Positions 38,487 to 63,265 of a DNA stretch of 64,000 nt are shown piece after piece (position 1 is the stretch's first letter; each line of letters starts with the position of its first letter). A program made the translations under genes and the position numbers. The stretch is from Sphingomonas nostoxanthinifaciens (GTDB taxonomy: Bacteria; Pseudomonadota; Alphaproteobacteria; Sphingomonadales; Sphingomonadaceae), in the NCBI RefSeq assembly GCF_019930585.1, contig NZ_CP082839.1:2910001-2974000 (forward strand). The letters run 5' to 3'. A model generated the notes under the pieces. It made no database searches, was not told where the DNA came from, and worked only from the letters and a program-made list of their open reading frames with translations.

Positions 38487-38502
38487 AGATCGTATACGAT
38501 CT
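38487..38502. promoter_or_regulatory. TCGTATACGA-type operator, site 1 (before GH27)
   Basis: A perfect 16-bp palindrome, AGATCGTATACGATCT, ending 26 bp before the GH27 start. It shares the core TCGTATACGA with sites at 52601, 57469 and 63266. GTATAC-centred palindromes are typical binding sites of GntR/FCD regulators, one of which is encoded at 59437. Confidence 0.8.
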
Positions 38503-38528: not shown

Positions 38529-40076
38529 GTGACGATGATCCGCCGAGCCTGCGCGACGCTGATCGGCCTGCTCGCTGCGCTCGGCGCGCAGGCGCGGCCA
38601 CCGATCGGCGCGGACATGACCGGCGACTGGGTGGTCACCGCCGCACCGTCCAATCCGGGCGTGCGGCTGCTTCACATCGCCCGCGCGGCGAACGGCGTAA
38701 CCGGCACGATCACATCGGATTGGTATGGCGAGCTGCCGATGCTCGACGTGACGACGGAGCCCGCGGCTTTGTCCTTCTCGATCTATAACGGCAATCCGCG
38801 CATCGCCCGGATGCGCTTCCGCTTCGCGCAGGTCGGCAGCCAGTGGCACCTGACCGGGGCCGGTCGGCGGGGATCGAGCGACGCGCCGGCGCATCGCGCG
38901 ACGGGCGCGGAGCTGGCGCGGCTGACCTTCCACGCCGCCCCTCTGCCGCCTTTGCGCGAGCTGCCCGACGATGGCCTCGCGCGCACGCCACCGATGGGGT
39001 GGAGCAGCTGGAACAAGTTCGAGGCCGCGATCGACGACGTGACGGTGCGCGCGACTGCCGACGCGATGGTGCGCTCCGGGCTGCGCGATGCCGGCTATCA
39101 TTACGTGAACATCGACGACGGCTGGCAGGGCGCGCGCGACGCGCAGGGCATTCTCCATCCCAATGCCCGCTTCCCCGACATGAAGGCGCTGGCGGATTAT
39201 GTGCATGCGCGCGGGCTCAAGATCGGCATCTACAGCTCGCCGGGCCCGAAGACCTGTGCCGGCTTTCCCGGCAGCTACGGCCATGCCGCGCAGGATGCGA
39301 AGACCTTCGCCGCGTGGGGCATCGACTATCTAAAATATGATCTCTGCTCGGGCGAAGGCTTCTTCAACACTGCGGAGAGCGTGCGCGCGACCTATCAGGA
39401 GATGGGCGCGGCACTGCGCGCGACCGGCCGGCCGATCGTCTACTCGCTATGCGAATATGGCCGGTTCGACGTCGGCGCGTGGGGCCGCAAGGTCGGTGGG
39501 CACCTCTGGCGCACGACGCGCGACATTACCGACGATTACGGCAACATGGCCGGCATCGGCTTCGAGAGCGACGGCATGCCGGACCATGCCGGACCGGGCG
39601 GATGGAACGACCCCGACATGCTGGAGATCGGCAATGGCGGCATGACCGCCGACGAGGAGCGCACCCACCTCGTTTTGTGGGCGATGCAGGCGGCGCCGCT
39701 GATGCTGGGCAACGACCTCACGACCGCCGCCCCGGCGACGCTCGCGCTGTTGTCGAATCGCGCGGTGATCGTGATCGATCAGGACCGGCTGGGCGTGCAG
39801 GGCCGGCGCGCATCGATCGACCGCGCGACCGAGGTCTGGACCAAGATGCTTGCCGACGGCACCACCGCCGTCGCCTTGTTCAACCGCGCCGACAAGGCGC
39901 AGGACGTGGTGGCGGTGTGGCGCCAGATCGGCCTGGCGGACGATGGCGCGGTGCACGACGTGTGGACGGGGACCGATACACCGCACCCCGGAACGAACTA
40001 TACGGCGCGAGTGCCGGCGCGCGGGGTGGTGCTGTTGATCGTGCGGCCGCCGTCCCAACGCCAAATCGTCGGATAA
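38529..40076 (+). CDS. GH27-family glycosidase, alpha-galactosidase-like, secreted
   Basis: A 515-residue exported protein. A signal peptide (LIGLLAALGAQA) and a beta-rich N-terminal domain of about 130 residues precede the GH27 barrel, which begins at TPPMGWSSWNKF. The nucleophile is Asp271 in LKYDLCS; the acid/base Asp is expected in LWRTTRDITDD; GGWNDPDMLEIG is another family block. GH27 includes alpha-galactosidases and beta-L-arabinopyranosidases. Extensin serines carry alpha-galactose, which would suit the operator-linked regulon, but specificity is inferred. GTG 38529 has the better ribosome-site spacing; ATG 38535 is an alternative. Confidence 0.88.
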   Translation: MTMIRRACATLIGLLAALGAQARPPIGADMTGDWVVTAAPSNPGVRLLHIARAANGVTGTITSDWYGELPMLDVTTEPAALSFSIYNGNPRIARMRFRFAQVGSQWHLTGAGRRGSSDAPAHRATGAELARLTFHAAPLPPLRELPDDGLARTPPMGWSSWNKFEAAIDDVTVRATADAMVRSGLRDAGYHYVNIDDGWQGARDAQGILHPNARFPDMKALADYVHARGLKIGIYSSPGPKTCAGFPGSYGHAAQDAKTFAAWGIDYLKYDLCSGEGFFNTAESVRATYQEMGAALRATGRPIVYSLCEYGRFDVGAWGRKVGGHLWRTTRDITDDYGNMAGIGFESDGMPDHAGPGGWNDPDMLEIGNGGMTADEERTHLVLWAMQAAPLMLGNDLTTAAPATLALLSNRAVIVIDQDRLGVQGRRASIDRATEVWTKMLADGTTAVALFNRADKAQDVVAVWRQIGLADDGAVHDVWTGTDTPHPGTNYTARVPARGVVLLIVRPPSQRQIVG

Positions 40077-40756: not shown

Positions 40757-40841
40757 CGTCATCCCGGACTTGATCCGGGATCCCGCTTCTTCTGTCTTCG
40801 TCGGAAGACAAGCGGGGCCCCGGATCAGGTCCGGGGCGACG
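40757..40841. repeat. REP-like palindrome, family A copy 4
   Basis: The left arm CGTCATCCCGGACTTGATCC... (40757-40788) pairs with a diverged right arm ending GATCAGGTCCGGGGCGACG (40810-40841); a short TCTTCGTCGGAAGA stem forms the tip. The right arm overlaps the 3' end of the epimerase gene, supplying its stop codon. Confidence 0.87.
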
Positions 40842-41820
40842 GCAAGCCTGCCGTTTGACCCCAGAACCCCGGCTCGGGCGGCATCAGCATGCCGCCCGCA
40901 TCGAGGCGCACCCCGCCCGGCCGATCCTCGCGCAGCCACAGCGGGCCGTCGAGATCGGCGCAGTCGGCCGCCTGCGCCACGCGCCAGGCCGCCGCGATCG
41001 ACAGCGAGGTCGAGATCATGCAGCCGACCATCACGCCCAGCCCGCGCGCCCGCGCGCCCGCCAGCAGGTAAAGCGCCTCGGTGAGGCCGCCACTCTTGTC
41101 GAGCTTGATGTTGACCATGTCGTAGCGCGTCGCCAGCCGATCGAGATCGGCGGCGACGTGCGCGGATTCGTCGGCGCAGATCGGTACGCTGCGGACGAAG
41201 CCCCCCAGCGCCGCGTCCTCGGCCGCCGGCAGCGGCTGCTCGAGGAATTCGACGCCGCATTCGGCCAGCACCGGCTGCATGACGGCGAGGAGATCGAGCG
41301 ACCAGCTTTCGTTCGCATCCACCACCAGCCGTGCTGCGGGCACCTCCGCGCGCACCGCGCGCAACGCGGCGGCAGGGTCGTCGGCATCGACCTTGACCTT
41401 GACGACGCGCGCGTCTGCCAGCGCGCGCGCCGCCTCGGCCATGCGCGCGGGCGTGTCGATCCCGACCGTCAGCGCGGTGGCGATCGGCGAAAGCGGTGGG
41501 CCGCCCGCAGCCGCCAGTCGCGCCTCCAGATCCCACAGGGCGCAGTCGACGGCGTTGCGCGCCGCACCCGGCGGCAGCAAGGCCCGCAATTCCTCGCGCC
41601 CCGCCCCGCCCGCCAGCGCATCGACGACCGACACGATCTGATCGCGCGCGCGCTCGGCGGTCTCGCCATAACGCGCGAGCGGCACGCCCTCGCCGCGCCC
41701 GAATAGTCCGTCAGCGGTGACGGTCGCGACCACGACGTCGGCCATCGTCCGCGTGCCGCGCGCGATGCGGAACGGCTTGGCGAGCGGCCAATGCTCGACA
41801 GCGGCGGTCAGGATGCGCAT
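40825..41820 (-). CDS. enolase-superfamily dipeptide epimerase
   Basis: A 331-residue member of the muconate-lactonizing/L-Ala-D/L-Glu epimerase group. Catalytic lysines are in KVKVD (K141/K143) and NIKLDKSGG (K239); metal ligands are Asp168 (DANESW), Glu194 (EQPLP) and Asp217 (ADES). Such enzymes epimerise the second residue of dipeptides, and substrate range varies widely. It lies 80 nt downstream of the POT transporter on the same strand and probably ends that operon. Its stop codon lies inside a palindromic repeat, so the last few residues (GLPSPRT) are repeat-derived. Confidence 0.88.
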   Translation of the reverse strand: MRILTAAVEHWPLAKPFRIARGTRTMADVVVATVTADGLFGRGEGVPLARYGETAERARDQIVSVVDALAGGAGREELRALLPPGAARNAVDCALWDLEARLAAAGGPPLSPIATALTVGIDTPARMAEAARALADARVVKVKVDADDPAAALRAVRAEVPAARLVVDANESWSLDLLAVMQPVLAECGVEFLEQPLPAAEDAALGGFVRSVPICADESAHVAADLDRLATRYDMVNIKLDKSGGLTEALYLLAGARARGLGVMVGCMISTSLSIAAAWRVAQAADCADLDGPLWLREDRPGGVRLDAGGMLMPPEPGFWGQTAGLPSPRT

Positions 41821-41857
41821 GCGGCCGCGCCTAAGCGCCCACGCTTCGAAATGTAAG

Positions 41858-41885
41858 CGTCACCCCAATGCATGTCGGGATGACG
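41858..41885. repeat. degenerate REP-like hairpin, family A copy 5
   Basis: A 28-bp remnant, CGTCACCCCAATGCATG then TCGGGATGACG, keeps the outer CGTCA/TGACG arms of family A but has lost the inner palindrome. It lies between the POT gene and the epimerase and could reduce transcription into the latter. Confidence 0.6.
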
Positions 41886-41900
41886 TCCGGGATGCTTCGC

Positions 41901-43262
41901 TCACCCCAGCTCCAACCCCCGCTCGATCGGCCGCCTCAGCAGCATGAGCAGCAAGGCGCCGGCCACGCCGATCGCTACGTTCATCGCCCAGAATTCGGTC
42001 GGGGTCATGCGGCCGTAGAAGCCGCCGAGCCAGCCGATGATGTTGTACGAGACGAACAGCGACAGGAACACCACGCCCATCATCGTCGAATTGACCTTGG
42101 GCGGCGCCACGCGGCTGACCAATGCGAGCAGGGTCGGCCAGTAATAGAGGAAGCCGATCCCCAGCAGCACGTCGTACATGATCGGCGCAATCACCGGCGC
42201 ACGCCCGCCGCCCAGCGCCGCGATCAGCAGCACGATGTTGGCGGCGACCGCGATCCACACGCCGGTGGCGATCTTGGCGAGCTCGCTCGGCTCGCGCCCG
42301 CGCTCGTTCTGACGCTTCCACCAGGCGAGCAGGGGCGGCACCAGCACGATGCTGGTGAACGGATCGATCGAGTTGAACCACGCCACCGGCACGTGGAAGC
42401 CGAAGAAATCGAGATCGACATGCCCGTCGATCCACACCAGCGCCGCATCGGTATTCTGATAATAGATCACCGACTGGAAGCAGGTCAGCACGATCACCAG
42501 GATCAGCAAGGCGAGCTTCCGCCAGTCGGCCGCCGTCAGCGGCGCGTGGCTCTCGCGGACGCCCTTCGCCTGGGTCGGCATGAAGCGGAAGCCGGCCATG
42601 TAGGTGGCGAGGCCGATCAGCATAAGCAGCCCCGCCGCGCCGAAGCCGGCATGCCAGCCATAGACCTGCGCCAGCAGCCCGCATGCCAGCGGGCCGACCA
42701 CCGCGCCGACATTGATGCCGACCGAGAAGATCGCGAAGCCGCGCGTCCGCCCGTCGGCATCCTCGACCGGATAGAATTGCCCGACCTGCGCCGAGATATT
42801 GCCCTTGAGCAGCCCGCAGCCGACGACCAGCAAGGCAAGCGCGAGCAGGAAGCTCTGGTCGAACGCCATCGCGACATGGCCCGCGCTCATCAGCAGCGCG
42901 CCGGTCATCACCGCCGCGCGCCGCCCGATCAGCCGATCGGCGATCATCCCGCCGAACATCGGCGTGAAGTACATGAAGCCCGCGTAGAGGCCGTAAATCT
43001 GCGACGCGAGCGCCATCGTCGACATCGGCCCGAACACGCCTTCCAGCGTGGCGCGGAAGCCCCCGAACCCGGCGATATGCCCCACGTGCCCCGGCAGCAG
43101 CAGCGACTGCTGCATGTAGAGCACGAGGATGCCCGTCATGCCGTAATAGGAAAAGCGCTCCCACGCCTCGGTGAAGGCGAGGAACCACAGGCCGACGGGC
43201 TCGCCGAGCAGGCGCCCCTGGGCCGGAACCCGGGTCGCCTGCTCGTTCGGGAGGATGCCCAT
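41901..43262 (-). CDS. POT-family proton-dependent oligopeptide transporter
   Basis: A 453-residue major-facilitator protein with about 12-14 helices. The POT signature E32-x-x-E35-R36-F37-SYYG drives proton coupling, and GCGLLKGNISAQVGQFYP is the conserved helix 4-5 block. It imports di- and tripeptides. The gene starts 2 nt after the S10 peptidase stop, so uptake is coupled to extracytoplasmic proteolysis. No partner is needed, as POT carriers act alone. Confidence 0.93.
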   Translation of the reverse strand: MGILPNEQATRVPAQGRLLGEPVGLWFLAFTEAWERFSYYGMTGILVLYMQQSLLLPGHVGHIAGFGGFRATLEGVFGPMSTMALASQIYGLYAGFMYFTPMFGGMIADRLIGRRAAVMTGALLMSAGHVAMAFDQSFLLALALLVVGCGLLKGNISAQVGQFYPVEDADGRTRGFAIFSVGINVGAVVGPLACGLLAQVYGWHAGFGAAGLLMLIGLATYMAGFRFMPTQAKGVRESHAPLTAADWRKLALLILVIVLTCFQSVIYYQNTDAALVWIDGHVDLDFFGFHVPVAWFNSIDPFTSIVLVPPLLAWWKRQNERGREPSELAKIATGVWIAVAANIVLLIAALGGGRAPVIAPIMYDVLLGIGFLYYWPTLLALVSRVAPPKVNSTMMGVVFLSLFVSYNIIGWLGGFYGRMTPTEFWAMNVAIGVAGALLLMLLRRPIERGLELG

Positions 43263-43264
43263 GC

Positions 43265-44911
43265 TCAGCCGCCCGGCCGGCTCGCCATGTCGATGAAGTC
43301 GTCGATGTCCTGCTTGAACTGCGGGCGGACGGCGTTGTTGACGTAGACCATGTGGCCGGACTCGTAATATTTGAACGACAGGTTCTTCCGCAGGTCGGCC
43401 GGGATCTGCATGTGCTTCAGGTCGAATTCGGCGCCAAAGAAGGGCGTCGCCATGTCATAATAGCCGTTGAGCGACATCACCTTCAGGCTCGGATTCTGGC
43501 GCATCGCCTGGGCGAGATCCAGCGCGGTATCTGCCAGCGCCATCTTGCCGAAACCGCCGCGGCCCGGCGCCTTGTGGCTCGAATCCCAGTGGTTGCCGCC
43601 GATCGCGACATAATAGTTCGGCCGGTAGCTGAGCTTGGTCTTGTAGCCCAACGTGCCGAACAGATATTTGTTGAGCGCACCGATATAGGGGCCGCTCAGG
43701 CTGGTGTCGGCGGGATCATATTCCGGGCCCTCGCCGGCATCGTCGGCGTCGTAGCCGGTGAAGCGGGCGTCGAGGCGACCGATCGTCTTGCCCTCGCCGC
43801 GCAGCAGCTCCTTGCGGAAGCGCGACAGGTCGACGCGCAGGTCGGACTTCAGGATATAGTCGACCGGCAGGCCGGTATAGGCGCTCATCTGCTGCGCGAT
43901 CGCCTGCTTCTCCTGCGGGCTGATGTCGGAGCCCTTCTGCAGCGCGGAGGCGTAGGGGCCGGCGGCCCAGGCGCGCACCTGCGTCAGGAACGGCTCCAGC
44001 GTCGCCGGGCGGTTCTGCAGCCGGTTATGATACCAGGCGTCGGCGGCGTAGCTCGGCAAATAGGTGACGTGGATCTGGTCGTAGCCCGGCTGGCGCACGC
44101 CATAGTTCAGGATCGACGACAGCAGCACGACGCCGTTCATCTGCACGCCCTTGTCCTGCAGCGCATAGACGAGACCGGCCGACCGCAGCGTGCCATAGCT
44201 TTCGCCGAAGAGGAATTTCGGGCTGTTCCAGCGATCGTTGATCGTCATGTAGCGCATGATCGCGCGGGTGTAGGCGTCGATATCCTGGTCCACGCCCCAG
44301 AATTCCGGCCCCTTCGACTTGCCGATCGGCCGGCTGAGGCCGGTGCCGATCGCGTCCATGAAGACGATGTCGGTATGGTCGAGGATGGTGTTGTGGTTCT
44401 CGCCGATCGGGAACGGCCCGTTGGGCTGCGCGCCCGGCTGCGGTGTGTCGACCCGCACCGGCCCCATCGAGCCCATGTGCAGCCACATCGACGACGAGCC
44501 CGGCCCGCCATTGTAGGCGAAGGTGATCGGCCGTTCCGGCGCGCCCTTGGCGCGATCCGCCACATAGGCGACGTAGAACATGCTGGCGATTGGCTCGCCA
44601 TCGTCGTTGCGGATCGTCAGCGTGCCCGGCGTGACGGTGTAGGTGATCAGCTTGCCGTTGACCGTGACGCTGCCGCGCTTCGGCTGCGCCTGCTCGACCG
44701 CGGTCGCGACCGCCATGTCGGGATCGCCCATCTTGTCGCCATGGCCGCGCGGCTCGGCGTCGGTCGCGCCGGGCTCGTCGGGGGCGTGCTGCGCCTCGGC
44801 ATTGGGCTTGGCCTTGCCTTTGCCCTCGGGCGCGGAACGATTCTGCGCGGCCAGCGGCGCGATGACGAGCGCGGCGACGGCACCGGCGAGCAGGAACGGC
44901 TTCAAGGTCAT
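43265..44911 (-). CDS. S10-family serine carboxypeptidase-like protein
   Basis: A 548-residue exported peptidase with a signal peptide and a Lys/Glu/Pro-rich linker (about 25-65). The S10 motifs are clear: NGGPGSS at 134-140 (oxyanion region), GESYG with Ser238, NGYYDMATPF with Asp486, and ESGHMVY with His520. S10 enzymes remove C-terminal residues at acid pH and several accept proline-containing peptides. It sits between a DUF885 gene and POT, consistent with trimming peptides before import. Confidence 0.93.
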   Translation of the reverse strand: MTLKPFLLAGAVAALVIAPLAAQNRSAPEGKGKAKPNAEAQHAPDEPGATDAEPRGHGDKMGDPDMAVATAVEQAQPKRGSVTVNGKLITYTVTPGTLTIRNDDGEPIASMFYVAYVADRAKGAPERPITFAYNGGPGSSSMWLHMGSMGPVRVDTPQPGAQPNGPFPIGENHNTILDHTDIVFMDAIGTGLSRPIGKSKGPEFWGVDQDIDAYTRAIMRYMTINDRWNSPKFLFGESYGTLRSAGLVYALQDKGVQMNGVVLLSSILNYGVRQPGYDQIHVTYLPSYAADAWYHNRLQNRPATLEPFLTQVRAWAAGPYASALQKGSDISPQEKQAIAQQMSAYTGLPVDYILKSDLRVDLSRFRKELLRGEGKTIGRLDARFTGYDADDAGEGPEYDPADTSLSGPYIGALNKYLFGTLGYKTKLSYRPNYYVAIGGNHWDSSHKAPGRGGFGKMALADTALDLAQAMRQNPSLKVMSLNGYYDMATPFFGAEFDLKHMQIPADLRKNLSFKYYESGHMVYVNNAVRPQFKQDIDDFIDMASRPGG

Positions 44912-44963
44912 GATTCCTCCGAGGAGCTTTTCGTTGGGGGTGATTAAAGCAGACTGTGCCGGA

Positions 44964-46721
44964 TCAATGCACGTCCGGATAGGGGTTCGGGCCGCCGGCG
45001 GCGATCCATGCGTCGAGCTGCTGCTCCAGCACCGGCAGCGGCACCGAGCCGAGGCTCAGGAACTTGTCGTGGAACCAGCGTTGGTCGAACTTCGGCCCCA
45101 GCGCCGCTTCGGCCTTGGCGCGCTCGCGCCGGATCGTCAGCTCGCCCAATTTGTAGGCGAGCGCCTGGCCCGGCCAGCTGATGTAGCGGTCGACCTCGGT
45201 CTCCACCTCGTGCTGCGACAGCGCGGTGTGGTCGGCGAGGTAGGCGATCGCCTTCTCGCGGCTCCAGCCATAATGATGGATGCCGGTGTCGATCACCAGC
45301 CGCACCGCGCGCCACATCTCGTAGCTCTCGCGGCCGAACTCCTCGTACGGCGTGCGATAGATGCCCTCGAGATGGCCGAGCCACTCGCAATAGAGGCCCC
45401 AGCCCTCGCCATAGCCCGAGAAATAGGTGTTCTTGCGGAAGTCGGGCTTGCCCGGCGTCTCCAGCGCCACCGCCGCCTGGAAGCTGTGGCCCGGATTGCA
45501 TTCGTGCAGCGTCAGCGCCGGGATCTGGTAGAGCGGCCGCGACGGCAGATCCTGCGTGTTCATCAAGCACGATTCCAGCCCGCCGCGCCCGGCGGTGTAG
45601 AAGGCCGCGATGGCATCGGGCACCGGCACGATCGTGAAGCGATAGCGCGGCAGGAAGCCGATCGTGCTCTTCAATTTCCCGTCCATCCGCTTGGCGACAT
45701 AGGACGATACGCCCAGCAGTTCGTCGGGCGTGCGGGCATAGAATTGCGGATCGGTGCGCAGGAAGTGGACGAACTCGGCCATGCTGCCGGTGAAGCCCGC
45801 ATCCGCCTTGGTCTTCTCCATGTCGGCGGAGATGCGCGCGACCTCGTCGAGGCCGATCTTGTGGATCTGCTCGGCGGTGAGGTCGGTGGTGGTATATTCG
45901 CGGATCTGCGCCTGGTAGAACGCCTTGCCGTCGGGCATCGCCTCGGCCGCCAGCACCGTGCGCGTCTTCGCCAGATAGACGTCGCGATAGAAGCTCAGCA
46001 GCTTGGTGTAGGCCGGGATCACGATTGTGCTCACCACCTGCTTCGCCTCGGCACGCAGCGCCTGCTGGTCGGCCGCCGGGATCGTGGCGGGCATGTCGCG
46101 GAAAGCGGCGTAGGCCGGATTCTTCTCGGGGTCGGCGCCGGTATAGGCGGCGATCGAGGCATCGCGGCCGACCAGCGTCGCCTTCGGTACGCTGAACCCG
46201 CGCGCGAGGCCGGCGCGCATGTTCGCCTCTTCTTCGTCGAAGTAGCGCGGCAGATCACGCAGGCGCGCCAGATAACGGCGATACTGGTCGGCGTTGCGCA
46301 GCGGGCCGCGCCCGCCGACGCTCGACCAGAATTGGCTGTCGGCGTTGAACGGCATCTCCCACGTCTTGAACTTGCCCTGCGCGACGAACGCCTCCAGCAC
46401 CGTGCGGAACACGGCGGCGTTGATCTTCTCGTCGGACGAAAGCTGGTCGACCGGCACCTTGTTCAGCGCGTCGAGCGTCTTTTGCCAATAAGCCAGCCGC
46501 CGTGCCTGCGTGGCGGGATCGACATGTGGGAAGTGATCGGTCGGGCCATCGTCATTGCCGCGGCCGGGGCCGAACTCGCCTTTCCGCCACTGCCACTCGC
46601 CGTCGTAGAGCGCCTTCAATTGCTGGTCGGCGGCGGTGGGGGCCGCTTGCGCCAATGCCGGCGCAGCCACCGCCGCGAGGAGCATGCCGAGCAGCGGCAG
46701 CGTTATCGATCGCATCGTCAT
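44964..46721 (-). CDS. DUF885-family secreted metallopeptidase-like protein, copy 2
   Basis: A 585-residue exported protein (signal LLGMLLAAVAAPALA) with a likely zinc site H406-E-C-N-P-G-H412, followed by YFSGYGEGWGLYCEW, which carries the conserved EGW and a likely third ligand. DUF885 proteins are predicted gluzincin-type peptidases; biochemical data are few. It is a tandem paralogue of the gene at 46718, sharing the whole layout (NAAVFRT/NAEVFRA, TLHECNPGHSF/AHECVPGHSF), and its ATG overlaps that gene's stop. Confidence 0.88.
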   Translation of the reverse strand: MTMRSITLPLLGMLLAAVAAPALAQAAPTAADQQLKALYDGEWQWRKGEFGPGRGNDDGPTDHFPHVDPATQARRLAYWQKTLDALNKVPVDQLSSDEKINAAVFRTVLEAFVAQGKFKTWEMPFNADSQFWSSVGGRGPLRNADQYRRYLARLRDLPRYFDEEEANMRAGLARGFSVPKATLVGRDASIAAYTGADPEKNPAYAAFRDMPATIPAADQQALRAEAKQVVSTIVIPAYTKLLSFYRDVYLAKTRTVLAAEAMPDGKAFYQAQIREYTTTDLTAEQIHKIGLDEVARISADMEKTKADAGFTGSMAEFVHFLRTDPQFYARTPDELLGVSSYVAKRMDGKLKSTIGFLPRYRFTIVPVPDAIAAFYTAGRGGLESCLMNTQDLPSRPLYQIPALTLHECNPGHSFQAAVALETPGKPDFRKNTYFSGYGEGWGLYCEWLGHLEGIYRTPYEEFGRESYEMWRAVRLVIDTGIHHYGWSREKAIAYLADHTALSQHEVETEVDRYISWPGQALAYKLGELTIRRERAKAEAALGPKFDQRWFHDKFLSLGSVPLPVLEQQLDAWIAAGGPNPYPDVH

Positions 46722-48463
46722 TCGCCTTTCGAAAGGGCATCCCTGGTGGCGGCGGGTTCGGGCCCGCCATCCGCAATCCATTGGTCGAGCACGCGCTCCA
46801 GCGTGTCCAGCGGCACCGCGCCGAGACCGAGAATCGTGTCGTGGAACCAGCGCTGGTCGAACTTCGCGCCCAGCGTCGCCTCCGCCTTCGCGCGCTCGCG
46901 CCGGATCAGCATCTCGCCCAGTTTGTAGGCGAGCGCCTGCCCCGGATCGTTGATGTAGCGATCGACCTCGATCGTGATCTCGTGATCGGAGAGCGCGGTG
47001 TGCGCCTTCAGGAAATCGAGCGCCTGGTCGCGCGTCCAGCCCATATGGTGCAGGCCGGTATCGACCACCAGCCGCGCGGCGCGCCACATCTCGTAGGTCT
47101 CGCGGCCGAACTCGTCATAGGGCGTCTCGTAGATGCCCATCTTGGTGCCGAGCCACTCCATGTAGAGCGCCCAGCCCTCGCCATAGCCCGAGAAATAGGT
47201 GCTCTTGCGGATCGCCGGCCGGTTCGGCCCCTCCAGCGCCAACGCCGCCTGGAAGCTGTGCCCCGGCACGCATTCGTGCGCGGTCAGCGGCGGGATGGTG
47301 TAGAGCGGCCGCGCCGGCAGGTCGTAGGTGTTCATCAGGCAGCTATCGAGCCCGCCATTCCCGCCCGTGGCGAACGGCGCGATGTTGGCCGGCGTCGGCA
47401 CGATCGTGAAGCGATAGCGCGGCAGCAGGCCGAAGGTGAATTTCAGCTGCCCGTTGATCTTGTTCGCCACATAGCTCGATTTGGCGATCAGCTCATAGGG
47501 CGTCTTGGCGGTGAATTGCGGATCGGTCTTGAGGAAATGGAGGAAGCCCTTGAAATCGCCGGTCCAGCCGGCGGCCTTCATCGTCGCCTGCATGTCGGCA
47601 TCGATCCGCGCGACCTCCTTCACGCCGATCGCGTGGATCGCCTCGGGCGTCAGCTCGGTGGTCGTATAGTCGCGCACCTTGGCGGCGTAATAGGCCTTGC
47701 CGTCGGGCAAGGCCTCGGCTGCCGTCGCGACGCGCGCATGCGGGATATAATCGTCGCGCAGATAGGCCGCGAGCTTGGCGAAGGCGGCGGCAGCATCGGC
47801 GACGGCCTTGCCCCCTTCGGCCTTCAGCGCGGGCGCGTCGGCGGCGGGGATGCTCGACGGCATCAGCGCGAACGGCGCGTAGAGCGGGTTGTTGGCGAGA
47901 TCGGTCGAGCCGAGCGGCACCACCGTCTTCCAGCGATCGCCCAGCGACACGCGCGGCTTGGTGAAGCCGCGCTTCTCGCCCGCCTTCAGGTTCGCGATCT
48001 GCTCGTCGACATAGCGCGGCATCTCGGCCACGCGGCCGAGATAGGCGCGATATTGCGCGACCGTGCCGAAGCCCTGGCGCGGCGCGATCCACGTCCAGAA
48101 ACCGAACGGATCCTCATATTCCTTATACTTCTGCTCGGTGACGAAGCCTTCGAGCGCGGCGCGGAACACCTCGGCGTTGATCCGCTCCTCGGGCGAGAGC
48201 TGGGCGAGCGGGATCGCGTCGAGCTGCTTCAGCGCGGTCTGCCAATAAGCGTAGCGTCGCGCCTGGCTGGCGGGATCGACGTGCGGCATGTGCGCGCCGC
48301 CGCCGCGCGGCCCCTCGGGATCGGAGCCCAGCTCCTGCATCCGCCACGTCCATTCGGCATCGTACAGCGCCTTCAGCCGCGCATCGGGCGAGCCCGGTGC
48401 GGGCGCGGCGGCGAGCGCGGTCGAAGCCAGCAAGGCGAGCGGGAGGATCATCAGCGCGCGCAT
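46718..48463 (-). CDS. DUF885-family secreted metallopeptidase-like protein, copy 1
   Basis: A 581-residue exported protein with signal ALLASTALAAAP and zinc motif H396-E-C-V-P-G-H402, then YFSGYGEGWALYMEWLG. The gene begins 1 nt after the ggt stop and overlaps its paralogue. Clear similarity over the full length indicates tandem duplication; differences in the loop before the HExxPGH motif may give the pair different peptide preferences. The function is inferred from the motif and from the peptidase operon. Confidence 0.88.
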   Translation of the reverse strand: MRALMILPLALLASTALAAAPAPGSPDARLKALYDAEWTWRMQELGSDPEGPRGGGAHMPHVDPASQARRYAYWQTALKQLDAIPLAQLSPEERINAEVFRAALEGFVTEQKYKEYEDPFGFWTWIAPRQGFGTVAQYRAYLGRVAEMPRYVDEQIANLKAGEKRGFTKPRVSLGDRWKTVVPLGSTDLANNPLYAPFALMPSSIPAADAPALKAEGGKAVADAAAAFAKLAAYLRDDYIPHARVATAAEALPDGKAYYAAKVRDYTTTELTPEAIHAIGVKEVARIDADMQATMKAAGWTGDFKGFLHFLKTDPQFTAKTPYELIAKSSYVANKINGQLKFTFGLLPRYRFTIVPTPANIAPFATGGNGGLDSCLMNTYDLPARPLYTIPPLTAHECVPGHSFQAALALEGPNRPAIRKSTYFSGYGEGWALYMEWLGTKMGIYETPYDEFGRETYEMWRAARLVVDTGLHHMGWTRDQALDFLKAHTALSDHEITIEVDRYINDPGQALAYKLGEMLIRRERAKAEATLGAKFDQRWFHDTILGLGAVPLDTLERVLDQWIADGGPEPAATRDALSKGE

Positions 48464-48464
48464 C

Positions 48465-50171
48465 TCAATAGCCCGCCGCGAGGCCGGCGCGGCGCGGATC
48501 GGCGACGCCGAGCAGGGTGCCGTCGGGCATGCGCTGGATCGCCTGCACCGAGCCGAAGTGCCACATATACGGCGTCGTCGGCCGCACCATCACGCCGTAG
48601 ACCGTCTTGAGCTCGTCGCGCACCTTCTCGGGCACGCGCGCCTCGACCACGAACGGCACGCCGGCCTGGCTGCCCTGGAAGCGCGGCGCATCGACCGACT
48701 GCTCCAGCGTCTTGCCGTAGCCGAGCAGGTTGATGAGCGCGATCGTCACCGCGCGGCTCGACAGACCGGGCGAGCCGATCGTCATCCACGGCTTGCCGTC
48801 CTTGGCGATCATCGTCGGCGGGAAGGGCGAGACGGCGCGGCGGCCCGGCCCGGCGGTGTTGCCGGGGAAATTGTTGCCGCTGTTCATGGCGATGCCGTCG
48901 ACGACGAGGCCGGTGGCGAAGGTGCTGCCGTAGACCGAGTGGGTGACCGAGGCCATGTTGCCGTCCTTGTCGATCGCGACGACATGGTCGGTATCGGTCG
49001 AGTGGCGGTCATGCTCGACGAACGAGCCCGCCAGCTCCATGCCGGTATGCGGGTTCGCATCGGCGGTCGCGGGCGCCTTGGGCATGCTGCCGGCGGCGAC
49101 GTCGTACATCATCTTGGCATAGGGCTTGGACAGCAGGATCGCCGTCGGCACGTTGTAGGTCAGCGGGTCGCGGACATATTCGTCGGTCGCGGTCTCGGCG
49201 ATGCCGAAGGCGCGGCGCACCATCTCGAGGCTCGCGGCCGAATCTGCGTAATAAGGATGCGCCCTGAGATCGTAATTCTCGAGCACGTTGAGCGTCAGGC
49301 CGATCAGCGTGCCCGCGGTCGACGGCGGCGGCGCGCTGATGATCTCGTAGCCGTTGAAGGTGGAGCGCACCGGCTCCTCCCAGCGCGACTTGTACTGCGC
49401 CAGATCGTCCAGCGTGATGCCGCCGCCGGTCGCGCGCACCGCATCGACGAAATGGTGCGCCCACTCGCCCGAATAGATGTAGGCCGGGCCCTCCGCCTGG
49501 ATATGCTTCATCGCCGCCGCCAGCCGCGGATGCGTGACGAGCGTGCCGACCGGCGACGGATAACCACTGGGGATATATTCCTCGCGGCCCGACGGGTAGA
49601 CCGACAGCCGCGTCTGCGCGGCATCGGCCAGCTCGGCGTAGAGGAAGGAATACATCGGGTATCCCTTGGTCGCGAGATCGATCGCCGGCTGGAAATAATC
49701 CGCCCATTTGAGCGTGCCGAACCGATCCGCCGCCGCCTTGATGCCCGCCACCGTGCCCGGCACGCCGACGCGCTTGCCCGACGTCTCGGGGATCTTGTCG
49801 CCGCCGCCGGTAAAGGCCGACCAGCCCGACGCGACGATCGCATCCTTGGTGTGATCGAGCTCGGAATCGAGGTAATAATATTTGCCGCTCTTGGCCTCGT
49901 AATAGAGGATCGAGACGCCGCCCGCGAGCGTCACCATCTGCGGCTCGATCACGCTCTGCATCGGCACCGCGGTGAGCACGGCGTCGAGCGCGGTGCCGCC
50001 CTTGCGCATCACCTCGACCATCGCCTTGGTGACGATCGGGTTGGACGAGGACGCCATTGCGTGCGCGGCCTTCACCGCCGGCTTCGGCCCCTGCTCCTGA
50101 GCGAGCAACGGCGCCGGCAACGCGAGGCCGGCGACGGCAAACGCCGCGATGATATCCCTGATCTTCGTCAT
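48465..50171 (-). CDS. ggt: gamma-glutamyltranspeptidase-family hydrolase
   Basis: A 568-residue periplasmic Ntn-hydrolase precursor with a signal peptide (FAVAGLALPAPLLAQ). Autocleavage and catalysis depend on Thr394 in STDTDHVVAID, the TDH form of the usual TTH motif; NSGNNFP, VSPFPPTMI and IGSPGLSSR are the substrate-pocket blocks of the small subunit. It could hydrolyse gamma-glutamyl peptides or another amide in the peptide-use operon. It lies 21 nt after the GH127 gene. Confidence 0.92.
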   Translation of the reverse strand: MTKIRDIIAAFAVAGLALPAPLLAQEQGPKPAVKAAHAMASSSNPIVTKAMVEVMRKGGTALDAVLTAVPMQSVIEPQMVTLAGGVSILYYEAKSGKYYYLDSELDHTKDAIVASGWSAFTGGGDKIPETSGKRVGVPGTVAGIKAAADRFGTLKWADYFQPAIDLATKGYPMYSFLYAELADAAQTRLSVYPSGREEYIPSGYPSPVGTLVTHPRLAAAMKHIQAEGPAYIYSGEWAHHFVDAVRATGGGITLDDLAQYKSRWEEPVRSTFNGYEIISAPPPSTAGTLIGLTLNVLENYDLRAHPYYADSAASLEMVRRAFGIAETATDEYVRDPLTYNVPTAILLSKPYAKMMYDVAAGSMPKAPATADANPHTGMELAGSFVEHDRHSTDTDHVVAIDKDGNMASVTHSVYGSTFATGLVVDGIAMNSGNNFPGNTAGPGRRAVSPFPPTMIAKDGKPWMTIGSPGLSSRAVTIALINLLGYGKTLEQSVDAPRFQGSQAGVPFVVEARVPEKVRDELKTVYGVMVRPTTPYMWHFGSVQAIQRMPDGTLLGVADPRRAGLAAGY

Positions 50172-50192
50172 GCCCGCCCCTTGTTGTTCGTG

Positions 50193-52568
50193 TCAGACCG
50201 AATTGGGTGATGCCGCCGGCGTGAAGATGCGCACGCCGAATACCGGGCCGCCGCGGCTCTTGTCGTCGGCGGGTTCGAACCGTACCGTCACCGCATCCTT
50301 GTGCTGGGTCAGCTCGGCGGGGATCGGATAGTCGATCTCGAAGAAGTCGCCCGGACGCTCGCCCGTTAGTTTCTGGCGCGCGATCACGGTGCCGTCGATC
50401 TTGATGACGAAATCCTTGTTGCGCTCGTCGCCCCAATAGGTCGCCTGCAGGATCAGCGGGCCGGGCCGCACCTTCGCCTTATATTCGAAGAAGCCGAAGG
50501 TGCGCGCGTCGCGCCCGTGGCGGCCGCGATAGGTGACGGCATAGCTGTTCTTGGCCGCCAGTTGGTGATCGCGCTCGGGCTGCATCTCGCCCAATTGCAT
50601 GATGTCGACCGAGCGTGCCTGCAGATCCTTGAGCCGCGCCTGCTCGCGCTGATAGGCGACCTGCTCGACCTGCCAGCCGGCCGCGTCGAAGCTCTTGAAA
50701 TAGACCGCCGTGCGCCGATCGCGCTGCTGGAAGAACGGCGCGAACTGAAGGTCGGCGGGCTTGGCGATGCCCGCGGTGCGGAACCGCCCCTGCCCCGCAT
50801 CGACCGCGGTGAAGCCCGCAATCACGTCGGCCGCCACCAAGGCCGGCGCTGGGCCCTCATAGGGCTGGTCGGCCGGGCCGAGATCGGCCGCCAGCACCAC
50901 CGGCCCGTGCAGTAATGCGATCGTGGTCGGATCGTCGACGGTCGACTCGCTGCGCAGCGCCATCGGCAGGATCAGCGCGACCTTGTCGCCCCTGCTCCAG
51001 CGGCGGCGGACGATGGCATAACCGTCCGCGGCCTCGATCGGCACGTTGACGCCGTTCACCGCCAGCGACGCGCTTTTGCACCAGGCCGGGATGCGTAGCG
51101 CCAGCGCGAAGTTCTGCGGCCGCGCGAGATCGGTCAGCGTGATCGCGACATGCTCGTCGAACGGATAGCCCGTCTCCATCCGCAGCGTCGCGCCCTTCGC
51201 CTTCCACTGCGCGACCGACGGGATGTAGAGGTTGGCGATCAGCGTATCCGCGCCCTGCCACCAGATCGAATCGCCGTGCTTGGCGTGGCTTTCCATGCCG
51301 CTGCCGACGCAGCACCAGAAATCGTCATAGGGCCTGGAGAATTTGCGCGCCGAGCCCGACATCAGCGGCACCATGTAGGCGAACATGCCGGTCGCCGGAT
51401 CCTGCTGCGCGAGGATGTGGTTGAGGTGCGCGCGCTCGTAATAATCGAACAGAGCGGCGCGCGGCTGCCACTGGTAGAGCTCGCGCGTCAGCTTGAGCAT
51501 GTTGTAGCTGTTGCAGCTCTCGCACGTCTGCTCGGTGATGTGATTGGAGACCGAGCGCGCCGAGGGAAAATATTCGCGGTCGGCATTGCCGCCGATGACA
51601 TAGCTGTAATCGCGCGTCACCGTTTGCCAGAAAAACTCCGGCGCGATGTTGGCGTCGCGGCGGCCGCCCACGTCGTAGATGCGGGCGAGGCCGATGATCT
51701 TTGGGATCTGGGTGTTGGCGTGGATCCACGGCAGATCGTCCTGCCGCGCGGTCAACGGATCGAGCACCTTCTTGTGGCGGATGCGCTCGGCCAGCCGCAG
51801 CCAGCGGGCATCGCCGGTCGCGGCATAGAGATCGGCGAAGCTCTCGTTGATGCCGCCATGCTCGCAATCGAGCATCACCTGCACCTGATCGTCGTTCAGC
51901 GCCGCGAACACGCCGTCGATATAGCCGCCGAGTGCGACTGCCACCGGCACAGCCTGCGCGTTGCCGCACAGATCCTTCGCCGCGAACAGCCCGGCATATA
52001 ATTTGTGCCAGTTGTAGAACGGCACCCAGCAGCCGTTGAGATCGAACCCCATCGAGCGGATGTCGCCGCGCTTGATCTCGGGGAAGATCGCCTTGCCATC
52101 CTCCACCACGTCGCCGCGCTTGCGGGTGAAGCCGGCGACATAGCCGTCGCCATGCGCCTGCTGACAGGTCGCCAGCTCGGCGACGATATAATCGACGCGC
52201 CGCTTGCACTCGGCGTCGCCGGTCTGCGCGTACATCAGCGCGATGGCGGTCAGATAATGGCCGAGCGTATGGCCCGCGATCGTGTCGCTCTCCCACCCGC
52301 CATAGACTGCGCCCTTCGGCTGCAGGCCCGCGCTCGTCCGGAAATTGTGGAGCAGCCGGTCGGGCTCCAGCGCGTGCAGGTAGCGCAGGTTGCCGGCGAC
52401 CGCGTCGGCCCATGGCGACGGCAACAGCCGTACCGAATCGAGCGGCAGCGGCCGGGGCGACGACGGCAGGCGATCCCCCGACGGCGCGGCGCGCAGCTCG
52501 GCCGGCATCAGCGCCATTACGCCCACGCCCGCCAGCAACGTCCGTCGCCTCAGCATCACCTCGCCCAT
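50193..52568 (-). CDS. GH127-family beta-L-arabinofuranosidase-like enzyme
   Basis: A 791-residue enzyme with a Tat-type signal (LRRRTLLAGVGVMALMP). The GH127 zinc/nucleophile site is intact: E350 and C352 in CESCNSYNM, and C419-C420 in FWCCVGSGMESH, the same pattern and spacing as Glu338, Cys340, Cys417 and Cys418 of the bifidobacterial hydroxyproline-linked arabinofuranosidase HypBA1. A C-terminal carbohydrate-binding-like beta domain (about 640-791) follows. It would remove beta-L-arabinofuranose from hydroxyproline. ATG 52568 follows AAGAGGAG at good spacing. It heads an apparent seven-gene operon. Confidence 0.92.
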   Translation of the reverse strand: MGEVMLRRRTLLAGVGVMALMPAELRAAPSGDRLPSSPRPLPLDSVRLLPSPWADAVAGNLRYLHALEPDRLLHNFRTSAGLQPKGAVYGGWESDTIAGHTLGHYLTAIALMYAQTGDAECKRRVDYIVAELATCQQAHGDGYVAGFTRKRGDVVEDGKAIFPEIKRGDIRSMGFDLNGCWVPFYNWHKLYAGLFAAKDLCGNAQAVPVAVALGGYIDGVFAALNDDQVQVMLDCEHGGINESFADLYAATGDARWLRLAERIRHKKVLDPLTARQDDLPWIHANTQIPKIIGLARIYDVGGRRDANIAPEFFWQTVTRDYSYVIGGNADREYFPSARSVSNHITEQTCESCNSYNMLKLTRELYQWQPRAALFDYYERAHLNHILAQQDPATGMFAYMVPLMSGSARKFSRPYDDFWCCVGSGMESHAKHGDSIWWQGADTLIANLYIPSVAQWKAKGATLRMETGYPFDEHVAITLTDLARPQNFALALRIPAWCKSASLAVNGVNVPIEAADGYAIVRRRWSRGDKVALILPMALRSESTVDDPTTIALLHGPVVLAADLGPADQPYEGPAPALVAADVIAGFTAVDAGQGRFRTAGIAKPADLQFAPFFQQRDRRTAVYFKSFDAAGWQVEQVAYQREQARLKDLQARSVDIMQLGEMQPERDHQLAAKNSYAVTYRGRHGRDARTFGFFEYKAKVRPGPLILQATYWGDERNKDFVIKIDGTVIARQKLTGERPGDFFEIDYPIPAELTQHKDAVTVRFEPADDKSRGGPVFGVRIFTPAASPNSV

Positions 52569-52600: not shown

Positions 52601-52612
52601 ATCGTATACGAT
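52601..52612. promoter_or_regulatory. TCGTATACGA-type operator, site 2 (GH127 / reductase)
   Basis: The palindrome ATCGTATACGAT lies 33 bp before the GH127 start and 72 bp before the divergent reductase gene, in a 115-bp intergenic region. It could control both transcripts and thereby the whole peptidase operon. Confidence 0.8.
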
Positions 52613-52683: not shown

Positions 52684-53703
52684 ATGACCGAAGACGATCG
52701 CGTCGCGATGACGCTGGACGAGGTCGCCGCATTGTCGCGCGCGATCCTGACGAAACACGGCCTCGCGCCCGACCATGTCGAAGCGGTCACGCGCACGATC
52801 GTCGCGGGCGAACGCGACGAATGCGCGAGCCACGGCGTCTATCGCCTGATCGTGTGCGTCAACACGCTGAAGAAGGGCGTCGTCGTCACCGACGCGGTGC
52901 CGCAGGTGCAAGATTGCGCGCCCGCTCTGCTGCGCGTCGACGCGCGCGGCGGCTTCGCGCAACTGGCGTTCGAGGCGGGGCTGCCGCAGCTCGTCGCCAA
53001 GGCGAAGCGCAACGGCATCGCCGCGATGGGGATCAACCATTGCGTCCACTTCGCGGCACTCTGGCCCGAGGTCGAGGCGGTGACGGCGCACGGCCTCGTC
53101 GCGCTCGCCTGCACGCCCAGCCATGCCTGGGTCGCGCCCGCCGGCGGGATCAGGCCGGTGTTCGGCACCAATCCAATCGCGTTCGGCTGGCCGCGTCCGG
53201 GTGCGCATCCGTTCGTGTTCGACTTCGCCACCAGCGCGGTCGCGCGCGGCGAGATCGAGCTGCACCGCCGCGCCGGCAAGCCGATCCCCGAGGGCTGGGG
53301 CATCGACGCCGAAGGCCAGCCGACCACCGATGCGGCGGCGGCGCTGGCGGGTGCGATGCTCACCTTCGGCGGCCACAAGGGCTCGGCGCTGTCGACGATG
53401 GTCGAGCTGATCGCCGGGCCGCTGATCGGCGACCTGACCAGCGCCGAATCGCTCGCGGTGGATGCCGGCACTGGCTCCTCGCCGGTCGGCGGCGAGCTGG
53501 TGCTCGCGATCGACCCCGCCGGCTTCCTGGGCGATGCGGCGGGCGAGCATATCGCGCGGGCCGAGGCGTTGTTCGCCAACATCACCGGTCAGGGCGCGCG
53601 CCTGCCCTCACAGCGCCGGTTCGAGGCGCGCCTGCGCAGCGAGGCGAACGGCGTTCGCATTCCCCGCGCGCTCCATGACGACCTGCAGGCGCTGCTGGAT
53701 TGA
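52684..53703 (+). CDS. lhpD: Ldh_2-family dehydrogenase, Delta1-pyrroline-2-carboxylate reductase-like
   Basis: A 339-residue NAD(P)H-dependent enzyme of the malate/L-lactate dehydrogenase (type 2) superfamily. The motif INHCVHFAALWPEVE (H119, H122) resembles the LhpD/DpkA subgroup that reduces Delta1-pyrroline-2-carboxylate to L-proline, rather than malate dehydrogenases. FGTNPIAFGWPRP and FDFATSAVARGEIE are the cofactor region. In this locus it would rescue pyrroline-2-carboxylate from 3-hydroxyproline or D-proline as proline. The start ATG has AAGGA 6 nt upstream. Specificity is inferred. Confidence 0.82.
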   Translation: MTEDDRVAMTLDEVAALSRAILTKHGLAPDHVEAVTRTIVAGERDECASHGVYRLIVCVNTLKKGVVVTDAVPQVQDCAPALLRVDARGGFAQLAFEAGLPQLVAKAKRNGIAAMGINHCVHFAALWPEVEAVTAHGLVALACTPSHAWVAPAGGIRPVFGTNPIAFGWPRPGAHPFVFDFATSAVARGEIELHRRAGKPIPEGWGIDAEGQPTTDAAAALAGAMLTFGGHKGSALSTMVELIAGPLIGDLTSAESLAVDAGTGSSPVGGELVLAIDPAGFLGDAAGEHIARAEALFANITGQGARLPSQRRFEARLRSEANGVRIPRALHDDLQALLD

Positions 53704-53772: not shown

Positions 53773-54762
53773 TCAGCAGCTGCGAAGCGTCGGCGTCCCA
53801 CGCCGCCGGCGCATTGCTCCACCGGTAAGGCCGAAGCCGCCGATCATCATCATCCAGGTCGCTGCCTCGGGCACGGCGCCGGGCACGCCCGCCGCCTGGA
53901 GGAAGACCCCCGAATCCGACGTGTAGGACACGCCCGCCACGCTGCCGATGCTCACCTTGCCGGTGTTGGTGTAATCGAGCGCAACATTGGTCGCGCGCAG
54001 CTCGAGACCGAAGTCGAACGAGATGTCGGCCGTAGCACCCGTGATCGCGTAGAGCCCGGTGAACTGGGTGTTGAGCGGATCGTAGGAGGTGAAGCTGTAC
54101 GATTCCCACCCGTTCACGCGGGGATCGCTCACATAGGTGAATGTCGGATAGGTGCCGTTATAGCCGTAATAGCCGGCGCCATAGTCGCCGAACTCATACG
54201 CCTGGGCGTTGCCGAAATAGAAGCCGTAGTTGAGCTCGCCCGATGCGGTCGAGGGATTGCTCGTCCCGTCCAGCTTGCCGTCGAAGGAGAAGCTCACCGG
54301 GATCAAGGTCACCGTATCAGCACTCGCTCCCGCGATCGTGAAGTGGAGCGTGTCAGCCAGATGCGCGGAGGCGTCGGCGCTGCTGAAACTCGCCGCGCTC
54401 GCCAGAAGATGAACCTCCCCGGTCGAGAGATCGGCGGCAGCGGTGGCATAGGCCGCGTCCGGCAAGGCGACAACGCTCGACTCGTCATGCGCCGCCGTGG
54501 CCGTGCCGGTCGTGTCGGTCGTCCCGCTCACCGTGACGACGGCACCCTGCGACGACAGGAACCCGGCCGGATTGCACGGGCCAGTGCTGCCGTCGTTGAC
54601 CTGGAATTTCGCGCCGGTGAAGCCGCCCGCATTGTAGCCCGCCTGGCAGCCGCGAAGATATCCGCGCCCGGTGTTGGCGATAGTGGACACGGAATAGCCG
54701 GCCTGCGCCGCCGTCGCGCTCGTAAACATGGCAGCGACACCGACAAACGATACGATACGCAT
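53773..54762 (-). CDS. PEP-CTERM-like exported protein
   Basis: A 329-residue protein with a signal peptide (AAMFTSATAAQA), a Gly/Ser/Thr/Tyr-rich beta-type body (YGYNGTYPTFTY) with three cysteines in the mature part besides the terminal one, and the tail VPEAATWMMMIGGFG then AMRRRR. The tail has PEA instead of PEP, so recognition by exosortase is not assured. It lies inside the hydroxyproline region on its own. ATG 54762 is used; a GTG one codon upstream is also open. Confidence 0.85.
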   Translation of the reverse strand: MRIVSFVGVAAMFTSATAAQAGYSVSTIANTGRGYLRGCQAGYNAGGFTGAKFQVNDGSTGPCNPAGFLSSQGAVVTVSGTTDTTGTATAAHDESSVVALPDAAYATAAADLSTGEVHLLASAASFSSADASAHLADTLHFTIAGASADTVTLIPVSFSFDGKLDGTSNPSTASGELNYGFYFGNAQAYEFGDYGAGYYGYNGTYPTFTYVSDPRVNGWESYSFTSYDPLNTQFTGLYAITGATADISFDFGLELRATNVALDYTNTGKVSIGSVAGVSYTSDSGVFLQAAGVPGAVPEAATWMMMIGGFGLTGGAMRRRRGTPTLRSC

Positions 54763-54975
54763 CACGCTCTCCCCCGAACGGTCACGACCGGCCCCGCGCC
54801 ACGCGCGCGACGAAGCTTCCTTCGGCGCGCACGCACCTCAGGTCCGATCGGTTCCGATATGCTGATGACCCCGACCGTTCCCCTGAACGAGGATCGGCTG
54901 GACGGGTTATTCAGCACCGTCGAGAGGCGTGAAACCCTCCGAACAGAGGGGTGCCCAAAAAATGATTAAGATGGA

Positions 54976-57468: not shown

Positions 57469-57480
57469 ATCGTATACGAT
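57469..57480. promoter_or_regulatory. TCGTATACGA-type operator, site 3 (divergent hydroxyproline genes)
   Basis: The palindrome ATCGTATACGAT lies in the 52-bp space between the FAD dehydrogenase and deaminase genes, 14 bp from one start and 28 bp from the other. With so little room, both promoters must overlap it, which fits a repressor site. Confidence 0.82.
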
Positions 57481-57507: not shown

Positions 57508-58431
57508 ATGACTAGCACGAAGACGCTGTGGACCGGAGTGTACCCAGCCGCCACCACCCAGTTCGCCGAGGATCTCTCGATCGACTATGCCGCCACGCAG
57601 AACGTGCAGAGCGCGCTGATCGACGACGGCGTGGATGGCCTTATCATTCTCGGCACCTGCGGCGAGAACAATTCGCTCGAGCCCGACGAAAAGCGCAAGG
57701 TGCTGGCCGGCGCGGTCGAGGCATCTTCGGGCCGCGTGCCGATCGTCGCAGGCGTGTCGGAGTTCACCACCGGCCGCGCGATCCAATATGCCAAGGATGC
57801 CGAGGCGGCGGGCGCCGACGCGCTGATGCTGCTGCCGGCGATGGTCTACGTGCCCACCACCGACGAGCTGGTCGCGCATTTCACGATGGTGGCCGAGGCG
57901 ACCAGCCTGCCGATCATGCTCTACAACAATCCGCCGGCCTATCGCGTCAGCGTCGATTTCGCGACGCTGGAGAAGCTGGAGAGCGTCAAGAACATCGTCT
58001 GCGTCAAGGAAAGCGCGCCCGATCCGCGCCGCTTCACCGACGTCATCAATCGCTTTGGCGATCGCTACACGGTGATGGCCGGTCTCGACGACATCGCGCT
58101 CGAAGGGCTGATGCTGGGCGCGAGCGGTTGGGTTTCGGGCCTCACCAGCGCCTTCCCAAGCGAATCCGTCCGGCTGGTCGCGGCGCTCGCCGAGGGCAAG
58201 TTCGAGGAAGCGCTGGCGATCTATCGCTGGTTCATGCCGCTGCTCCACCTCGATGCCGAGCATGACCTCGTCCAGTCGATCAAGCTCGCCGAGCAGATCA
58301 TGGGCCGCGGGTCCGAGCGCGTGCGCATGCCGCGCCTGCCGCTCGCCGGCCAGCGTCGCGCCGACGTGATCGCGTGGGTCGAGAAGTGCGCGGCGACGAT
58401 GCCGAGCAAGCAGGCGAAGCTGGCGGCCTGA
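57508..58431 (+). CDS. lhpC: DHDPS-family Delta1-pyrroline-4-hydroxy-2-carboxylate deaminase-like
   Basis: A 307-residue class I aldolase-fold enzyme. The Schiff-base Lys167 is in VCVKES and Tyr139 in MLYNNPPAY; the usual GTTGE loop is GTCGENNSL. In hydroxyproline pathways this family deaminates and dehydrates the pyrroline to 2-oxoglutarate semialdehyde. The assignment over dihydrodipicolinate synthase rests on the neighbouring epimerase and dehydrogenase. Its stop shares one base with the epimerase start (TGATG). Confidence 0.87.
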   Translation: MTSTKTLWTGVYPAATTQFAEDLSIDYAATQNVQSALIDDGVDGLIILGTCGENNSLEPDEKRKVLAGAVEASSGRVPIVAGVSEFTTGRAIQYAKDAEAAGADALMLLPAMVYVPTTDELVAHFTMVAEATSLPIMLYNNPPAYRVSVDFATLEKLESVKNIVCVKESAPDPRRFTDVINRFGDRYTVMAGLDDIALEGLMLGASGWVSGLTSAFPSESVRLVAALAEGKFEEALAIYRWFMPLLHLDAEHDLVQSIKLAEQIMGRGSERVRMPRLPLAGQRRADVIAWVEKCAATMPSKQAKLAA

Positions 58432-63242: not shown

Positions 63243-63265
63243 ATATTCCCCCTTATTCTTGCAGG

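Follow-up and report, generated by a model that had tools for sequence, protein, structure and literature searches.

The 64,000-nucleotide window analyzed here, positions 2910001-2974000 of the complete 4,298,284-bp genome of Sphingomonas nostoxanthinifaciens (its relatives are Sphingomonadales), contains a run of seven minus-strand genes at bp 40825-52568. The first six of these, GH146-GGT-DUF885a-DUF885b-S10-POT, are probably one arm of a HypR-type regulon through which hydroxyproline-rich plant glycoproteins of the extensin type would be used. A preliminary description of the run gave these seven genes intergenic gaps of 21, 1, -4, 52, 2, and 80 nt (starting from the GH146 end) and a single operator ahead of the first gene, and our check of the open reading frame ends and of the operator in the window agrees with it exactly. 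It also took all seven genes as one self-contained unit; at most the first six form a conserved unit, as the seventh, a dipeptide epimerase gene, does not appear to belong with them, and the unit is not self-contained, since the regulon also holds a GH27 gene and a set of hydroxyproline genes. The membership of the unit in this regulon is strongly supported by the sequence comparisons that follow.

The operator, ATCGTATACGAT, is a palindrome with central GT/AC boxes (compare the FadR-subfamily consensus) and is found at both core and peripheral promoters. The 4.3-Mb genome contains four perfect copies vs none for a reversed control, so it is not a chance sequence. One copy (bp 52601-52612) lies about 32 nt before GH146, between it and a divergent Ldh_2-family gene; another (bp 38489-38500) precedes the GH27 gene; a third (bp 57469-57480) lies in the hydroxyproline cluster between its DAO and DHDPS genes; and the fourth, about 40 kb away at genome position 3007038, is 18 nt before a gene for a secreted DUF885 protein. 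There is no copy with two or fewer mismatches inside the seven-gene run. The operators at 38489 and 52601 overlap -10-like hexamers (recognized by consensus match only), as expected under repression. Two more DUF885 genes, those at 469315 and 920290, have a one-mismatch site ahead of them, in one case at about 10-40 nt and in the other at about 100 nt, and the probability is 1.5e-8 that chance would put at least three of the 11 exact decamers no more than 150 nt from the start of a DUF885 gene. Four other one-mismatch sites (37653, 1271157, 2032024, and 2809545) resemble background and were set aside; three are within genes or far from convincing starts, and the fourth, at 37653, is followed after about 98 nt by a small open reading frame for a secreted protein that has no link to the pathway.

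Conservation was followed in 59 related loci that were chosen because they encode GH146 relatives; 47 of them are long. DUF885 genes are present in 29 of the 47; the counts are 25 for both M24 and DAO, 24 for both the hydroxyproline epimerase and GntR, 23 for DHDPS, and 18 for Ldh_2. Nine control genes from the window gave a single match, in one locus. In Sphingopyxis the genes GH146-GGT-DUF885a-DUF885b-S10 lie in identical order beside the hydroxyproline genes and are followed by an operon for α-ketoglutarate semialdehyde dehydrogenase (KGSADH) with a perfect operator of its own. Of the 98 regions of the 59 loci that lie upstream of a GH146, DHDPS, or DAO gene, 60 contain the operator with two or fewer mismatches; permuted palindromes (n = 179) gave a mean of 0.6 and a maximum of 13 in the same regions.

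Because loci chosen for GH146 are biased, 299 genomes of the family were also scanned without that choice, counting GH146 at 57% identity or above. GH146 is present in 25 and the hydroxyproline epimerase in 40 of these genomes, and every one of the 25 with GH146 also has the epimerase (P = 2e-26; by genus 16 of 16, P = 2e-16; both values are inflated by the relatedness of the genomes). The two genes are 12 kb or less apart in 21 of the 25, and five more distant GH146 relatives (46-51% identity) are in genomes that lack the epimerase. There are 32 exact operators, spread over 23 genomes, and epimerase-positive genomes account for 25 of the 32; exact sites are carried by 17 of 40 epimerase-positive vs 6 of 259 epimerase-negative genomes (P = 2.6e-12); the reversed pattern has three sites in all 299. 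In the epimerase-positive genomes these sites face DHDPS/DAO, GH146/M24, Ldh_2, GntR/DAO, and KGSADH, with a few unassigned. None of six genomes of the same genus has the epimerase, so the cluster is scattered by gain or loss; only a partial GH146 paralogue was found among them, in one genome. Three Acetobacter loci, at around 6.7-7.1 kb, have operator-like sites in pairs, with a spacing of about 130 nt, that adjoin no family tested.

The enzyme at the head of the unit (bp 50193-52568) had been called GH127, a name dropped here because its closest characterized matches are GH146 and GH127 scores far lower. The Pfam family PF07944 spans both groups, but the best solved relative is BT0349 (5opj; 473 bits), next is Bll3HypBA1 (165 bits), and a GH127 structure (4qjy) gives only 92 bits; HypBA1 itself (3wkw/3wkx) is absent from the structure-sequence matches at E ≤ 0.001. 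The protein has a GH127/146-type catalytic domain and a DUF6805 C-terminus, keeps the zinc ligands E, C, C, and C, aligns at the ESCN and WCC motifs of the zinc-cysteine center, and begins with a Tat-type N-terminus (RRRTLL; this and all other signal peptides were assessed by eye). It is thus predicted to be a GH146-like β-L-arabinofuranosidase. Such enzymes differ in substrate: XeHypBA1 mainly hydrolyses Araf-β1-Hyp (PMC10850190), BT0349 is active on oligosaccharides derived from arabinan, and Bll3HypBA1 acts on arabinogalactan-protein (AGP) and arabinan. A second PF07944 protein (genome 3013917) was considered as a HypBA1 partner and rejected; it is a distant member with weak matches to both GH146 and GH127 structures, lacks an operator, and has unrelated neighbors such as photolyase and squalene-hopene cyclase genes.

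The two DUF885 proteins of the unit, DUF885a (bp 46718-48463) and DUF885b (bp 44964-46721), have apparent signal peptides, match PF05960 with 457 and 474 bits (over the cut-off), and contain HECVPGH (DUF885a) and the zinc-type HECNPGH (DUF885b); the HExxPGH motif is invariant in 50 of 50 DUF885 sequences. In a tree the proteins of these loci fall in one clade (support 97/99) that holds both copies from the unit as well as the copy at 920290, which is remote and carries an operator; the copy at 3005332, which has the perfect remote operator, is sister to this clade (91/95). The relatives were chosen by similarity to these copies, which in part builds the clade into the sampling, but the 12 copies from this genome were not so chosen. 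The operator-bearing copy at 469315 is placed elsewhere in the tree. The structural model of DUF885b (pLDDT 89.8) aligns at Z 30-40 only with solved DUF885 structures and, over most of its length, with M32, M3, and M2 peptidases (carboxypeptidase Taq type, Pz-peptidase, Dcp, and ACE) at Z 9-14, which indicates a zinc-metallopeptidase fold, a statement about fold only; unlike those enzymes it has HExxPGH rather than HExxH spacing. Among open-access papers no functional description of DUF885/PF05960 was found. With 14 matches in a single genome of 4.3 Mb, the DUF885 family is unusually expanded here.

The other members of the unit were also assigned by Pfam and NCBIfam profiles. The γ-glutamyltranspeptidase (GGT; bp 48465-50171; PF01019, 1.7e-87) aligns at its catalytic Thr. 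The S10-like serine carboxypeptidase (bp 43265-44911) has an apparent signal peptide, a partial match to PF00450 (E 1.8e-7), and GESYG, D, and GHM triad motifs seen by eye only; a PDB sequence search gave no match to it. The POT/PTR2 di/tripeptide:H+ symporter (bp 41901-43262) is above the TIGR00924 cut-off at 195.6 bits. The last gene of the run (bp 40825-41820) encodes a protein of the dipeptide-epimerase/DgcA family (enolase superfamily) that scores 411 bits against an NCBIfam DgcA equivalog cut-off of 400, and no gene of DUF1611, the DgcN partner family, is present in the genome. The 80 nt gap before it contains a weak terminator-like hairpin on the minus strand (bp 41858-41885; a consensus match only, in a scan whose count was not above that of shuffled sequence), and the gene is found in none of the 59 related loci. 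The hairpin, the lack of conservation, and the missing partner indicate that it probably lies outside the unit; the hairpin and the 0 of 59 loci limit the conserved unit to six genes at most.

The GH27 gene (bp 38529-40076, plus strand) is convergent with the unit and lies downstream of it; its product is α-galactosidase-like with an apparent signal peptide (Pfam Melibiase_2, 7.9e-69), and its nearest solved protein is rice α-galactosidase (1uas). On the other side the divergent Ldh_2-family oxidoreductase gene (bp 52684-53703, plus strand; PF02615, 9.6e-95) is followed by an M24 prolidase-type peptidase gene (bp 54976-56178, minus strand; no signal peptide seen) and an FAD-dependent oxidoreductase (DAO) gene matched by profile, a candidate D-hydroxyproline dehydrogenase (bp 56175-57455, minus strand). 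Four plus-strand genes then encode, by family matches, a DHDPS-family candidate pyrroline-4-hydroxy-2-carboxylate deaminase (bp 57508-58431), a proline-racemase-family candidate 4-hydroxyproline 2-epimerase with both active-site cysteines kept (MCGHG and DRSPCGT; bp 58431-59429), a GntR/FCD regulator that is a candidate HypR (bp 59437-60084), and an amino-acid permease (bp 60095-61531). By these assignments M24-DAO together with DHDPS-epimerase-GntR-permease is a 4-hydroxyproline catabolism gene set (compare HypE/O/D/R; PMC5343134), and the arrangement of the candidate regulator alongside the three candidate enzymes is kept in relatives. A gene for a protein with a PEP-CTERM sorting signal (bp 53773-54765), inside this cluster, was not found in related loci. 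The KGSADH gene (hypH) lies elsewhere, at genome 1791381-1792961.

Some further genes and sites can be noted here. A secreted amidohydrolase gene (bp 61620-63242, minus strand) has a variant operator with two mismatches, TTCGTATACGAC (bp 63265-63276), upstream, and its membership in the regulon is uncertain; a second, divergent secreted amidohydrolase gene (bp 63306-64790, plus strand) has this variant in common with it. One of the two proteins is nearest to phenylurea/molinate hydrolases and the other is only weakly similar to any, matches that do not decide between prolidases and other hydrolases. A DPP4-like S9 peptidase gene (genome 3123934-3126228) has a one-mismatch operator just upstream of its first start codon and is a possible further member of the regulon, judged from that site. 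Three TTCGTATACGAA palindromes are present at genome 2669078, 3126606, and 4033949, of which one is between a sortilin/BNR protein gene and a TonB-dependent receptor gene, one is before an M20 peptidase gene beside gyrB, and one is near a small open reading frame; they may belong to another regulator, perhaps that of a sister FCD regulon.

We envisage the following route. The substrate would be a glycoprotein of the extensin type, α-galactosylated on Ser and β-L-arabinosylated on hydroxyproline. In the periplasm GH27 would take off the Ser-linked α-galactose and GH146 the arabinofuranose on hydroxyproline, and the bared peptides would be cut by the DUF885 metallopeptidases, the S10-like carboxypeptidase, and GGT. 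POT would import the resulting di- and tripeptides, from which cytoplasmic M24 would free hydroxyproline and proline; the hydroxyproline would then be epimerized, oxidized, and deaminated by the epimerase, DAO, and DHDPS proteins to α-ketoglutarate semialdehyde, which KGSADH would convert to 2-oxoglutarate. In many bacteria the oxidation of L-arabinose likewise leads to α-ketoglutarate semialdehyde, and so both halves of arabinosyl-hydroxyproline could meet at KGSADH. The adjacent GntR/FCD protein would repress all arms through ATCGTATACGAT until released by hydroxyproline or a derivative of it.

Several observations weigh against this reading. GH146-linked GH27 is present in only 2 of the 47 long loci, S10 in 6, and POT in 3; the KGSADH gene of this genome has no operator at three or fewer mismatches within its 1.5-kb flanks; no TonB-dependent receptor gene with a convincing operator was found; and no GH43 gene is near the regulon. 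DUF885b-like genes are present in 39 of 40 epimerase-positive genomes but also in 69 of 259 epimerase-negative ones, so the clade is associated with the pathway and not exclusive to it. The GH146 substrate could be another β-L-arabinofuranoside, as for BT0349 and Bll3HypBA1, and induction, operator binding, and the enzyme activities are all predicted from sequence.

The route might instead serve general scavenging of proline- and hydroxyproline-containing peptides from collagen or bulk protein, with GH146 and GH27 as accessories not aimed at peptides. The HypR regulons of Alteromonadales and Streptomyces do hold collagenases and prolyl peptidases, DUF885b-like genes occur without hydroxyproline genes, and genes for DPP4-like and M28 peptidases adjoin operator-like sites. 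Among the operator-linked genes examined here, however, none is of the collagenase type, GH146 and the hydroxyproline epimerase occur together in all 25 GH146 genomes, usually 12 kb or less apart and under a common operator, and animal collagen is not known to carry arabinofuranose or Ser-α-Gal; we regard this explanation as unlikely. Use of pectic arabinan or AGP with co-opted peptidases, to which the known activities of characterized GH146 enzymes on arabinan and AGP side chains and the closeness of BT0349 would point, seems very improbable given a regulon whose core is hydroxyproline catabolism; no pectinase, GH43, or GH51 gene was seen at operator sites, and the genome's seven GH43 loci are all far away. 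Recycling of cell-wall muropeptides or γ-glutamyl peptides is suggested by GGT and the dipeptide epimerase (compare L-Ala-D/L-Glu epimerase) in the same run, but that epimerase gene is placed after the hairpin and is unconserved in related loci, and the operator links the remaining genes to hydroxyproline genes, which makes this idea hardly credible.

The preliminary description had held that glycopeptides rather than polysaccharides are the substrate and that DUF885 proteins take part in digesting them. The operator shared with the hydroxyproline genes and the constant company of GH146 and the epimerase favor the former, with the substrate itself read indirectly from gene content, and the remote DUF885 genes with the same operator favor the latter, although DUF885b-type genes are not confined to the pathway. 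The glycopeptide reading, DUF885 included, is well supported by these comparisons and now rests on stronger grounds than gene order. More tentatively, the regulon may be a widespread though scattered one in Sphingomonadales, Caulobacterales, and some others, for arabinosylated hydroxyproline-rich plant glycoproteins, whose DUF885 clade would be new metallopeptidases specialized for hydroxyproline/proline-rich, possibly partly glycosylated, peptides.

Parts of this system are familiar. The HypR regulons of Proteobacteria (Leyn et al. 2016, PMC5343134; for example, S. meliloti HypR) likewise have a GntR/FCD regulator and a palindromic operator with GT/AC boxes, and include an epimerase, a D-hydroxyproline oxidase, a deaminase, and a member of the malate-dehydrogenase family, with prolyl peptidases and a permease for di- and tripeptides upstream; they also include collagenases, in whose place GH146, GH27, DUF885, GGT, and S10 are found here, in Sphingomonadales and relatives. 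The ATCGTATACGAT motif did not turn up in the paper's text. In S. coelicolor (PMC6608401) a GntR/FCD HypR also governs hydroxyproline catabolism and a secreted protease, but this is an M9 collagenase rather than a glycosidase with DUF885, and the motif, CTNTGC(A/C)ATGTCAC, is less symmetric. The Xanthomonas XeHypBA1/HypBA2/HypAA cluster has a GH146 for hydroxyproline-linked arabinose and an adjacent prolyl oligopeptidase gene; unlike the genes described here it adds GH121 and GH43, its peptidase gene is a pseudogene, and the parts of that report consulted mention no hydroxyproline catabolism (PMC6085000). The Bifidobacterium longum HypBA1/HypBA2/HypAA system also removes β-L-arabino-oligosaccharides from hydroxyproline-rich glycoproteins, but it takes the sugar (GH127, GH121, GH43, and an ABC importer), whereas here the peptide and its hydroxyproline are proposed to be used. 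HypR regulons with collagenases and prolyl peptidases, as well as GH146 action on hydroxyproline-linked arabinose, are thus known, and what is new is their union under one operator with DUF885, in a plant version with glycosidases; no description of a regulon joining hydroxyproline catabolism, an arabinofuranosidase, and DUF885 was found among open-access papers, supplementary data aside.

Extensins and their relatives are among the most protease-resistant components of plant walls, and bacterial use of their protein part is poorly known. One short operator links deglycosylation, peptide cutting, import, and the burning of hydroxyproline, so that the whole route can be tested. DUF885, with its 14 copies here, gains a concrete substrate hypothesis which, if true, would explain part of an uncharacterized family, and the host would appear to be a soil or plant-associated bacterium that strips the sugars from cell-wall glycoproteins and then burns their hydroxyproline.

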